Below are positions 38,044 through 44,232 of a DNA stretch of 64,000 nucleotides, piece by piece. Made by a program: the position numbers and the translations under genes. This stretch comes from Desulfurivibrio sp. GTDB taxonomy: Bacteria; Desulfobacterota; Desulfobulbia; Desulfobulbales; SURF-16. The notes beneath the pieces are model-generated. The model saw nothing but the letters and a program-made list of their open reading frames with translations. It ran no database searches and was not told where the DNA came from. The DNA lies in assembly GCA_003605035.1 (NCBI GenBank), contig QZKJ01000039.1, positions 1 to 64,000 on the forward strand, in the 5' to 3' direction. Each line of letters begins with the position of its first letter. The stretch's first letter is position 1.

Positions 38044-39969
<1,926 letters not shown>

Positions 39970-40024
39970 GGGCAAGGACTCGCGGTGGAAGTGTGGTACG
40001 GCGGGAGCATGGCGGGCATGGCTG

Positions 40025-40873
40025 TTACTGGCAGGCCAGCTGTCTGTCTGCGCCGCTCTGCCCATGGACCAGCGGCAGCCCTTCCGTCTGCCAGCGCGAC
40101 GTCCCTCCCTTCAGGATGCCGAGCACCTCATAGCCGTGCATGGCGAGAAATTTCGCGGCAATGATTGACTCCTTCATGATCCAGTCGGTGACAATGATCT
40201 TGCGGTCCTTGGGAATGAGGGCTAGGTTTTCCTCAAGAAAAACCAGGGGGCAGTGCAGCGCCCCTTTGATATAATCGCCGGCCAGCAGGGCATTGTCCAT
40301 GGTGAAGACCAGGTCCTCCCTGCTTAAGGTGCCATTGTCCAGGCTCCTTGCATCCAGCAGGAAGATGTCGTTGTTCTCTTTCAGCATTTTTCGGCATTCC
40401 CGGGGCGGCAGCTTGGCGACCTTGACCTTCTGCCATTTTTCGCCAACCGTCAGCGGATAATTGAAATACCGCCATTCCGGGATGCCGCCCCGGAAATAGG
40501 AGACATTGCTGTAGCCCTTTGCCACCGCAATCCTTGCGGCGCGTTTACTGTATGCTCACCTGTCGCTCAGGCAATAAAAGACCAGCGGGGTGTTTTTGTC
40601 CCGCGGAAGCCTGCTGGTGTTCTTCATGTTGATAATCGGGATGTTGATTGAGCCCGGGATGTGCTGGCTGTCATACTCGATTGCACTGAGGACATTGATG
40701 ATCAGCGCCTGCTGATCGCTGTCGGCCAGCTGCTTCAGCTCAAAGGCGCTGATCTCCTTGTAGCCTTCCAGGGACGGCTCGGCCTCCGCGGCATGGGCGC
40801 TCCAGGGGAGCATGAGCAGGCTGAGCAGCAGGAGCGCGACCAGAATTCTATTTGGGGATGTTGTTCCTGTCAT
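40025..40873 (-). CDS. Exported tandem-rhodanese selenoprotein A
   Basis: 282 aa if the in-frame UGA at 40556-40558 (codon 106) is Sec. Signal peptide ends near SAHA. The first rhodanese domain has YC101-LSDR-U106 in the active-site loop followed by [13 protein letters not shown] and FRGGIPEWR, continuous with the domain fold across the UGA. The second domain has Asp in place of the active Cys (VTDWIMKES) and is probably inactive. Stopping at UGA would cut the first domain in half. The family has a Cys form with C-x4-C in this loop. It likely moves sulfur or disulfide/selenylsulfide states in the periplasm. It starts 12 bp after its paralogue. Confidence 0.8.
40525..40539 (-). promoter_or_regulatory. 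Candidate SECIS hairpin of selenoprotein A
   Basis: On the coding strand CCGCA-AGGAT-TGCGG; the GG of the loop lies 22 nt after the UGA. Selenoprotein B has the same spacing and loop letters on a different stem sequence. Confidence 0.6.
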
Positions 40874-40885
40874 TATTTTAATGGG

Positions 40886-41704
40886 TTATTCGGCGCAGAG
40901 CGCGGGATCGGTGGCCGGCGAATTCTCAACGCGGGCAACCGGCAGTTTCTCGGCACGCCAGCGGACAAGGCCGCCTTTCAGCACGCCGAGCACCTGATAC
41001 CCCTTGCTGCGCAGAAATTTGCCGGCCAGGATGGCTTTTTTATTGGTCCAGTCGGTGATGACGATTCTGGCCTCCCGGGGGATCTGGTGATACCACTCAT
41101 CCAGGTAGACCATGGGGCAGATGTTTGCTCCCCTGATGAAGATGTTTTCCCTGCTGCAGTCAATGGGCCGGACATCGAGGACATAGACGCCGGAGTCCGA
41201 CTCGAGCAGATCATAAACCTGCCTGGGGCTCAGTTTGTCAATTTTAATGGCCGCATACTCTTCACTCACCGTCAGCGGATAGTTGAAGGCCCGCCACTCG
41301 GGGATGCCGCCCTTAAAGCAGTATACGCTGGTATATCCCATTTCCACTGCGATCCTGGCAGCTCTGGGGCTGTACGGTCAGTCCTGGCCCATGCAGTAAA
41401 GAATGAGCGGGGTTGATTTGTCTATGGGCAGCAGCCTGGAGGTACGGAAGTTGATAACCGGGATATTGATGGAGCCGGTGATGTGCAGCCCGTTGTATTC
41501 GATCCTGCTCAGGGTGTTGATCACCATCACTCTGGGATCGTTTTCCATCATGTTCTTGACCTCCGGAGCGGTGATGAACTGCACTCCCTGGCCGGCCACG
41601 GGGGAAGAGAAAAAGAGCAGCAGCAGGGGAAGCCAGGGCATGAGTCGGCGCGGCAGAGAAGAGAAGACCAGCGCCGCGCTGAACGGACAGCAGGCGCGGG
41701 TCAT
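40886..41704 (-). CDS. Exported tandem-rhodanese selenoprotein B
   Basis: 272 aa if the UGA at 41378-41380 (codon 109) is Sec. A hydrophobic signal segment (about 22-34, LMPWLPLLLLFF) ends near VAG. First rhodanese domain: YC104-MGQD-U109 with SPRAARIAVEMGY and FKGGIPEWRAFNYPLT after it; the second domain again has Asp for the catalytic Cys (VITDWTNKKA). It is a close paralogue of protein A over the whole first domain. ATGA overlaps the stop of the response regulator (41701-41704), so the two are coupled. Upstream GGGGGCAG is a fair ribosome binding site. A role as periplasmic sulfur or redox sensor is inferred. Confidence 0.8.
41347..41361 (-). promoter_or_regulatory. Candidate SECIS hairpin of selenoprotein B
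   Basis: On the coding strand CTGC-CAGGATC-GCAG; the GG lies 22 nt after the UGA, exactly as in selenoprotein A. The stem is short. Confidence 0.5.
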
Positions 41705-42078
41705 TTATCTGCCCCCATGAGCACCCGTACCTGCTTGGCAAAGCTGCGGGTGTCGATGGGCTTGCTGATATGGCCGACGCAGCCGGCCTCCAGGGCCTTT
41801 CTGCTGTCGCTTTCCATGGCAAAGGAGGTCACGGCGATGACCGGGATGCCCTGCAAAAGCGGGTCCTGTTTGATCATTTTCGTGGCGGTCAGGCCGTCAA
41901 GCCCGGGAAGCTGGATATCCATGAGGATGCTGTCCGGCCGCTCCCGGCGGGCGATGCTGATGCCCTGCTCGGCGTCAAGGGCCTCCAGTACGGCAAAATC
42001 GGCGAGTTCGAGCAGGGTGCGTACGAGCTTCAGGTTGAGCTCGTTGTCCTCGATAACCAGAATCTTTTTCCCTGTCAT
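41701..42078 (-). CDS. Single-domain response regulator
   Basis: 125 aa, receiver domain only. Phospho-acceptor D54 in LMDIQLPG, acidic pair E10-D11 (VIEDNE) and K in HISKP are all present. With no output domain it probably passes phosphate to another protein or acts by binding, as CheY-like proteins do. It is the first gene of the Sec-rhodanese operon, with ribosome binding site GAAGGAC and a 4-bp ATGA overlap with the next gene. The histidine kinase at the end of the operon is the obvious partner. Confidence 0.9.
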   Translation of the reverse strand: MTGKKILVIEDNELNLKLVRTLLELADFAVLEALDAEQGISIARRERPDSILMDIQLPGLDGLTATKMIKQDPLLQGIPVIAVTSFAMESDSRKALEAGCVGHISKPIDTRSFAKQVRVLMGADK

Positions 42079-42409: not shown

Positions 42410-42820
42410 TTACGAAAGGATAATTTTGAATTTTCTTCTCCCCTGTATTCGATATATTGTAAAATCCCGATCAATTGTGGCAATGGTGTTGATATCGAGT
42501 TTTTCTGCTAAATATACAAGGCAGGAGTCAGCAAAATCCATTGGTAGATCACGATATTTTTCCGTAAGCTCTTTTAATCGTCCAAAATCCTCATTTCCGA
42601 TGTTATGGATTTCAACCGCACCTCGGTGTACCCACTCCAGAAAATCTATCTGGGCACCTCGGTTGAAATCCAATAAATGGAGAGTCTCGGTTACGGATGC
42701 AAGGGTTGTGAGCAGGGTGAATTTGTTCGCTTTGATAAAATTGACCGCCTCAGCATGATGCTTGTCGGACGCGTCAAAGAGAGCTATTAACGGACCAGAG
42801 TCAATAAGGATTTTTTTCAT
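42410..42820 (-). CDS. PIN-domain toxin (VapC-like)
   Basis: 136 aa. PIN-domain ribonuclease fold: D7 in ILIDSGPLIALFD, a central acidic residue near TETLHLL and DFADSCLVYLAE plus TIDRDF near the C-terminus give the usual set of metal-binding acids. PIN toxins cut RNA and are silenced by the adjacent antitoxin. It overlaps the antitoxin gene by 4 bp (ATGA). The base composition is visibly more AT-rich than its neighbours, suggesting acquisition. Confidence 0.87.
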   Translation of the reverse strand: MKKILIDSGPLIALFDASDKHHAEAVNFIKANKFTLLTTLASVTETLHLLDFNRGAQIDFLEWVHRGAVEIHNIGNEDFGRLKELTEKYRDLPMDFADSCLVYLAEKLDINTIATIDRDFTIYRIQGRRKFKIILS

Positions 42821-43059
42821 TTCCTTTTGGCCCTGATTTTATCTTTCACTATCTCTTTTCTGTCTGAAGATAAATTGCCCTGCCCGCTTGAATACTTTCC
42901 AAATAAATCTTCGCCGGCACTCCATGCAGTTGCTTTGGCAAGCTTCCCAAGATAGGCATCAATGCTTTTACGTATCAACTCTGACTTTGTCAGGCCTAGA
43001 TCTTTTGCTGCATTGTTAATGGTTTGTTCTAGCTTAGGGTCGAGTCGCAATGTGATCAT
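42817..43059 (-). CDS. Ribbon-helix-helix antitoxin
   Basis: 80 aa. The N-terminal ribbon-helix-helix (MITLRLDPKLEQTINNAA.. then TKSELIRKSIDAYL) binds operator DNA; the basic C-terminus should wrap the PIN toxin. It is encoded first, as is usual, and would repress its own operon. AT-rich like its partner. Confidence 0.85.
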   Translation of the reverse strand: MITLRLDPKLEQTINNAAKDLGLTKSELIRKSIDAYLGKLAKATAWSAGEDLFGKYSSGQGNLSSDRKEIVKDKIRAKRK

Positions 43060-43227: not shown

Positions 43228-44232
43228 TCACCCCTGTTTCCCGGCCCGTTTGCGGCGCAGCCCGAGCAGCCCGAGCAGGCCGGAGCCGAGCAGCGGCAGT
43301 GCGCCGGGCAGGGGCACAGGATGCGGGTCGATCTCCCAGTCGAGCTCCACCCCTGGGGCCTGGGACGTCACCCCAAAGGCAAGGGTGTTGTAGAAATCGG
43401 CCCCGCCCCTCGCCTCTTCGCTAGTGGCAACATGAGTATTCAGGGAAGCGTCGATAACCAGGGTCTGGCCGATAAGGGTCTCGAATTCCAAGGTCAGCCA
43501 GCCGGTGTTGAAGTAATGACTGTCCACCTTTTCGCCTCCGCCGGATTGGCTGAGCTTGTCCGAATCAGTGTGGGACAGGATGGTGCCGGAGCTGTTACTG
43601 GTTTGCCAATTTTCCTCCCAGCCGCTGGAAAAGAGAAAATCCCCAGTGCTAATCATCCATGAAGTTATGCCCCACATTTTGCCGGAGGCGCCAAACCCGG
43701 CTATCTGGTTACTGTTCGCATCGCGTATGGCGAGGCCTGCGCTCATGTCAGCGGAGCTGCTGCCGCTTGTCCCGGGATGGGGGGTTCCCGCAACGAAAAA
43801 CGAGCCGTCTAACCCGATTGCGAGCTCCAGGGTCACGGCGTCGCCGTCCGAAAGTCCGGAGGTTCCGGGGGAAACGGTAAAGCGGTTCGAGGCCTTGGTG
43901 AGCATGCTGCCTTCCGCCCTGTAGGTGTCCTGCATGGAAATGGCCCAGGTATGGGCACCCAGGTTCAGATTGGCTGCGTCTGCACGCCCTGAGGATGCAG
44001 CGTACCCCTCCCCCCTTTCAAGGGACGGGCCTATCAGCCAGTCCCCGCTTACTCCGGAGTCATAATCCACGTAGGCAACGTCGGTGCCGGATGATTCACG
44101 GGACACATAATCCGGCGTGTCATACTTATAATAGCTTCTCGTGTAGTAATATGCAGAACCGAAGACCTGCGAGCTCTGGCCCAGCAGGATGACCAGGGCT
44201 GTCGCGCCCGCCGTTAAACAGGATCTTTTCAT
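43228..44232 (-). CDS. PEP-CTERM-like secreted protein
   Basis: 334 aa. Signal peptide (MKRSCLTAGATALVILLG.., ending near VFG). The bulk is a beta-rich, low-complexity secreted domain. The C-terminus is a sorting signal: PVPLPGALPLLGSG, a hydrophobic helix, then RRKRAGKQG. This is the PEP-CTERM type with the VPLPG variant, normally processed by an exosortase, which is not in this window. Ribosome binding site GAGGAG. Likely an extracellular or surface protein; specific role unknown. Confidence 0.85.
   Translation of the reverse strand: MKRSCLTAGATALVILLGQSSQVFGSAYYYTRSYYKYDTPDYVSRESSGTDVAYVDYDSGVSGDWLIGPSLERGEGYAASSGRADAANLNLGAHTWAISMQDTYRAEGSMLTKASNRFTVSPGTSGLSDGDAVTLELAIGLDGSFFVAGTPHPGTSGSSSADMSAGLAIRDANSNQIAGFGASGKMWGITSWMISTGDFLFSSGWEENWQTSNSSGTILSHTDSDKLSQSGGGEKVDSHYFNTGWLTLEFETLIGQTLVIDASLNTHVATSEEARGGADFYNTLAFGVTSQAPGVELDWEIDPHPVPLPGALPLLGSGLLGLLGLRRKRAGKQG

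Follow-up and report, generated by a model that had tools for sequence, protein, structure and literature searches.

Probable bacterial SECIS elements behind in-frame UGA codons of a tandem rhodanese gene pair in a Desulfurivibrio sp. signalling operon

Introduction

Bacterial SECIS (bSECIS) elements and rhodanese selenoproteins as such are already known. In the consensus model of Zhang and Gladyshev, as summarized in a 2026 review (PMC13188914), a bSECIS element has an apical loop of 3 to 9 nt whose first or second base is a G, an upper stem of 4 to 16 bp, a distance of 16 to 37 nt between the UGA and the apical loop, and a minimum free energy (MFE) of -7.5 kcal/mol or lower. A rhodanese-like selenoprotein, termed "form 1," is listed with the domain PF00581, the motif UxxS, and the accession WP_010941598.1 (PMC13188914, PMC9312934); the listing gives one motif only, and a tandem gene pair, a C-x4-U motif, and a linkage to sensors are absent from it. 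Further points of comparison are TsoB (NF045694), a rhodanese/DsbD fusion selenoprotein with the motif U-x4-U, the family rhodanese_LYCAU (NF041203) with C-x-U, and ExtH of Geobacter (PMC5877670). For the proposed function, the LuxP-LuxQ system, in which a periplasmic binding protein is the partner of a sensor kinase, may serve as an analogy of working principle.

Here we describe two tandem genes, A and B, in a 64,000-nucleotide stretch of Desulfurivibrio sp. DNA (contig QZKJ01000039.1, referred to as the window). Compared by listed domain and motif, both products resemble form 1 in having PF00581 and U-x-x-S. As in TsoB, position +5 of the loop is taken by selenocysteine (Sec), but unlike TsoB both products have a Cys at the first position and lack the DsbD part. 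Membership in either named family was rejected, as both proteins scored 58.8 bits with the TsoB model (cut-off 805) and 71.3 and 51.4 bits with the rhodanese_LYCAU model (cut-off 115), whose C-x-U differs from the C-x4-U found here. Like bSECIS elements, the hairpins of A and B are short intragenic stem-loops with a G-rich apical loop, located 16 to 37 nt past an in-frame UGA. Unlike the general model, the hairpin of this family is very compact (5 bp and 5 nt), keeps one fixed register, and lies in the codons for the peptide A-A-(R/G)-x-A, and in copy B the closing pair is mismatched.

Results

Genes A and B lie in tandem on the minus strand, at positions 40025..40873 and 40886..41704 of the window, respectively, and their full frames are open only if one UGA is read through in each, at 40556..40558 in A and at 41378..41380 in B. 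Gene A then codes for 282 amino acids with a signal-peptide-like N-terminus, two rhodanese domains (PF00581), and Sec at residue 106, and its paralogue B (47% identical) for 272 amino acids with Sec at residue 109. The active-site motifs are Y-C101-x4-U106-A-Y-S in A and Y-C104-x4-U109-P-Y-S in B, and the post-Sec peptide R-A-A-R-I-A-V is identical in both. Judged from the sequence, both N-termini appear hydrophobic and resemble a signal peptide, and the two double-rhodanese proteins are probably periplasmic. A confident fold model of B (mean pLDDT 90.9) matched rhodaneses, and alignment to 6mxv identified Cys104 as the canonical rhodanese cysteine; Sec109 lies five residues past it, where the active-site loop ends. 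Both Cys104 and Sec/Cys at position 109 were invariant in 45 aligned proteins. Because Asp (in ITDW) replaces the catalytic Cys expected in the second rhodanese domain, this domain is probably not a sulfurtransferase.

The original prediction had placed a GG in the loop of a small hairpin 22 nt after each of the two UGA codons, and both this spacing and the coordinates proved to be exact. On the minus strand, the core of hairpin A (CCGCA-AGGAT-TGCGG) occupies positions 40525..40539 and is part of a larger hairpin (8-bp stem, GGA loop) over 40523-40541, and the core of hairpin B (CTGC-CAGGATC-GCAG) occupies 41347..41361. The register is the same in both, and the fifth pair, A-U in A, is a C.C mismatch in B. 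Folded alone, hairpin A formed 8 bp and the GGA loop at -10.1 kcal/mol, and hairpin B, the weaker of the two, formed 5 bp and a 7-nt loop at -5.2 kcal/mol, compared to the bSECIS cut-off of -7.5 kcal/mol; when B was folded with its flanks (47 nt), a lower stem added stability and the value reached -12.1 kcal/mol. The loop and stem sizes (8 bp/3 nt or 5 bp/5 nt in A, 5 bp/7 nt in B) lie within the ranges of the bSECIS model, and so does the position of the apical loop, about 20-22 nt past the UGA in each copy. The required G is present in the loop of A, in the form of GGA or AGGAT. In B, it stands early only in the family register AGGAT and is the third base of the minimum-energy loop CAGGATC; the minimum-energy fold of this copy formally departs from the model in two respects.

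Taken alone, the two copies in the window were not statistically significant. When synonymous codons were drawn at random according to the codon usage of the window, at least as many pairs as observed were obtained with P = 0.08 for A and P = 0.49 for B. The equal spacing in A and B is inherited, because the two genes are paralogues with the same peptide. The original argument that a preserved position and loop indicate a selected structure was thus too weak for these two copies, which are not independent; as described below, the pattern does exceed chance across the family. The folding-energy z-scores of the 42-47-nt regions were not unusual (z -0.4 to -1.0), so that folding energy alone gives no support, and a scan of the window with Rfam at gathering thresholds gave no match.

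A homologue search covering GTDB contigs and whole genomes of the order, class, and phylum yielded 69 reliable family copies. The codon at the site was UGA in 38 of them and a Cys codon (UGC or UGU) in 31, and neither UAA, UAG, nor any other codon occurred. We tested a fixed register in which nt 17-21 after the UGA pair with nt 27-31 and the first or second loop base is a G. All five pairs and the loop G were found in 35 of the 38 UGA copies versus 1 of the 31 Cys copies, counts that refer to homologues which are not independent of each other. Sec homologues devoid of the pairing, named in the original prediction as the observation that would speak against it, did not appear, since at least four of the five pairs were kept in all 38. 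A Cys paralogue in the same genome (L019), which served as an internal control, had neither the full five pairs nor the loop G. Five UGA homologues fetched later from a Geobacteraceae-like family (L190-L194), two of which share an identical sequence around the site, were fully paired (CAGCC-AGTTT/AGTGT-GGCTG).

Two further observations concern related genes. One Cys (UGC) homologue, near position 1944 on the minus strand of L126, carries CCGCC-GGCAA-GGCGG at the SECIS position, possibly a relic of a gene that once encoded Sec, or a chance match. In a Geobacteraceae-like genome (G637), two more distant rhodaneses (L188 and L189) have a UGA at the aligned site and a hairpin in another register.

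It could be argued that codon bias and the conserved peptide A-A-R-I-A produce the hairpins as a side effect, with no selection on the RNA structure. Part of each stem (GC.../...GC) is indeed dictated by the peptide, and hairpins such as those in the window easily arise by chance, as the P values given above show. In a first set of homologues, however, the five pairs and the loop G were present in 33 of 37 UGA copies and in 1 of 26 Cys homologues, although only 3.6 (sd 1.8) of the 37 UGA copies were expected to have them under synonymous recoding. Moreover, synonymous third positions covary. Pair 2, which joins two Ala codons at their third positions, was C-G in 18 cases, U-A in 13, U-G in 4, A-U in 1, and G-C in 1, with no mismatch. 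The covariation score was 0.369 compared to 0.136 in shuffles, of which none out of 500 scored as high, and it dropped sharply once the pairing partners were slid; the covariation analysis of homologues that had been proposed as a check therefore came out in favour of the pairing. On the protein tree, at least seven switches between C-G and U-A were counted. A tree-aware sign test contained only 6 independent pairs, too few for significance, and in none of them did the partner change in the wrong direction. The loop behaved in the same manner, as its G-G or G-U was preserved in the Sec rows when the amino acid changed (AGG for Arg, GGU for Gly, AGU for Ser, CGU for Arg), and AGG accounted for 29 of 32 loop Arg codons compared to 14.6% of the Arg codons in the window. 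The pairing and loop G are also nearly confined to UGA copies. An origin as a side effect is refuted at the family level by the covariation, and we consider it highly improbable overall.

Pair 5 was A-U in 25 cases, C-G in 8, and U-G in 1, and the 3 mismatches all belong to copy B in the genus of the window, with C.C in the window and U.U in two relatives of the same genus. These mismatches and the low stability of hairpin B when folded alone might mean that only the hairpin of copy A works well and that of copy B is a decaying or inefficient SECIS element. We regard this as unlikely, as the UGA and the reading frame of B are conserved in all relatives, copy B retains its four outer pairs as well as the spacing and a GGA loop, and the lower stem increases the stability of its fold.

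The distribution of codons at the site also bears on the question of whether the UGA codons are true stops, either within broken or split frames or upstream of a second half that starts at its own GTG. GTG start codons are in fact present shortly past each UGA, and UGA is the most used stop codon in the window, ending 22 of 40 long ORFs including that of the response regulator gene in the same operon. If the codons were stops, the alternation of UGA with Cys codons, to the exclusion of UAA and UAG, would be hard to explain, and so would the purifying, codon-position-biased substitution pattern that persists downstream of the UGA and the pairing preserved there. We therefore judge true stops to be extremely improbable. 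The use of UGA as an ordinary stop codon in this organism argues for recoding and not for a changed genetic code.

The genome (4.22 Mb, 94% complete) encodes SelB (362.9 bits), SelA (620 bits), SelD (379.6 bits), and a tRNA-Sec with the anticodon uca. Thus, selA, selB, selC, and selD are all present, as required of a Sec-decoding organism, and the selD gene itself carries an in-frame UGA. Readthrough of the UGA codons by other means, such as a near-cognate tRNA for Trp or a changed code, has nothing in its favour except the open frame. It is at odds with the complete Sec machinery, with the predominance of UGA among the stop codons, and with the alternation of the residue with Cys and not with Trp, and we assign it a negligible probability.

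Since the homologues keep the pairing, the Cys control lacks it, and the Sec machinery is complete, we conclude with a probability of roughly 0.9 that A and B code for genuine selenoproteins and that their hairpins are bacterial SECIS elements, in support of the Sec decoding originally proposed for both sites. What the computations show is the location of the hairpins, their pairing and its covariation, the lack of the pairing in Cys homologues, the complete Sec machinery, and the alternation of UGA with Cys codons; compensatory pairing in Sec homologues combined with absence from Cys homologues is also what the bSECIS criteria call for. Presumably, SelB binds and Sec is inserted in vivo at both sites. 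The complex of SelB and Sec-tRNA would bind the GG-loop hairpin about 22 nt past the UGA, and the ribosome would insert selenocysteine at the UGA and continue into the double-rhodanese proteins (C-x4-U-x-x-S). The hairpin would be encoded by the codons for A-A-(R/G)-x-A, with the synonymous third positions under RNA selection.

The two rhodanese genes form part of an operon on the minus strand (38044-42078) with the order response regulator (RR), B, A, histidine kinase (HK). The first gene (41701..42078, minus strand) encodes a single-domain response regulator (PF00072), and its UGA stop codon shares the sequence AUGA with the start codon of gene B. Directly downstream of A, the last gene (38044..40065, minus strand) encodes a sensor histidine kinase of 673 amino acids with a periplasmic sensor domain, HisKA, and HATPase_c. 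The sensor domain was modelled with a mean pLDDT of 84.7 as a dCache-type fold, and the best crystal matches of this model were LuxQ periplasmic domains (TM 0.70 by target); the predicted LuxQ/dCache fold is not specific, as many dCache sensors match too. A thiol relay via a conserved Cys of the sensor domain was considered and rejected, as the domain has no conserved Cys and the best column contained Cys in 12 of 27 sequences.

A signalling receptor is encoded on the same strand 3' of the rhodanese gene in 59 of the 69 family copies (kinase in 39, chemoreceptor in 16, GGDEF protein in 4), beside Sec and Cys homologues alike, and the identity of the receptor was confirmed by Pfam in 14 of 15 examples. 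When only contig loci with sufficient flanking sequence were counted, a receptor neighbour was present in 19 of 21 family loci versus 5 of 31 loci of more distant rhodaneses. The type of partner differs by clade and comprises kinases, hybrid kinases, methyl-accepting chemotaxis proteins (MCPs), and GGDEF-EAL proteins.

Discussion

The SECIS assignment started from a visual impression of two copies and has become a family-wide element backed by covariation. It represents a clean case of an RNA signal that constrains synonymous sites, and even the choice of amino acids, within a coding region.

The signalling neighbourhood is the less expected result and suggests a link between selenium/sulfur chemistry and sensing that is unreported so far. 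In the open-access literature surveyed, mostly titles and abstracts and including PMC5093147, we found no description of a link between a rhodanese and a kinase or a chemoreceptor. We infer the signalling role of the rhodaneses from gene order, and neighbourhood does not prove interaction. Together with the Sec at +5, the canonical rhodanese Cys (C101 in A, C104 in B) might form a redox or persulfide centre based on sulfur and selenium, and the protein might assist in sensing as an accessory partner of the transmembrane kinase and the response regulator encoded alongside it. We slightly favour this combination of a Cys/Sec centre with an accessory sensing role. More tentatively, and at somewhat less than even odds, we propose that the two Sec-rhodaneses act in the periplasm as the sensing partner of the two-component system encoded by the RR-B-A-HK operon and that the Sec/Cys family as a whole serves kinases, chemoreceptors, and c-di-GMP enzymes. 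The LuxQ-like sensor fold of the kinase model is consistent with an accessory mode like that of LuxP-LuxQ, without being proof of it. The likeness would lie in the pairing of a periplasmic partner protein with a sensor kinase; unlike LuxP, the partner here has a rhodanese fold and not that of a periplasmic binding protein.

A less probable, though still credible, explanation is that the sulfur/selenium chemistry of the rhodanese is unrelated to signalling and that the adjacency of the sensor genes reflects history. Neighbouring genes descend together, and 10 of the 69 copies have no receptor neighbour, although some of the contigs concerned end too soon. On the other hand, shared descent would not readily account for a signalling output that is kept while the partner differs by clade, nor for the rarity of signalling neighbours among other rhodaneses. 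If the rhodaneses are indeed sensing partners, selenocysteine would act in signal detection (of sulfane sulfur, selenium, or the redox state), and UGA decoding might tie the expression of the downstream kinase to the selenium supply. A selenoprotein class that is already listed but functionally uncharacterized would thereby gain a tie to sensory transduction and a testable role.

The same genome (G000) contains further UGA-bearing rhodanese genes on contig C66. L021:1384-3102 encodes a TsoB protein (928.8 bits, cut-off 805) with two UGA codons (U-x4-U); past the second of these, CAGCC-CGGGT-GGCTG occupies the same register. L020:187-1512, located about 6 kb away from this gene, encodes a UGA rhodanese of about 441 amino acids with the motif U-G-M-S, and CGCC-GGTCT-GGCG is found past its UGA. 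By its size and its lone U-x-x-S, it is this protein, and not the products of the window genes, that looks comparable to ExtH of Geobacter.

Two other features were observed upstream of the operon on the minus strand. Positions 43228-44232 encode a secreted protein that gave no Pfam match and whose C-terminal end, VPLPGALPLLGSGLLGLLGLRRKR, resembles a PEP-CTERM/VPLPA-like sorting tail. The region adjoining the operon (42410-43059) encodes a PIN-domain protein and, upstream of its gene, an RHH protein; the two are likely a toxin-antitoxin pair.
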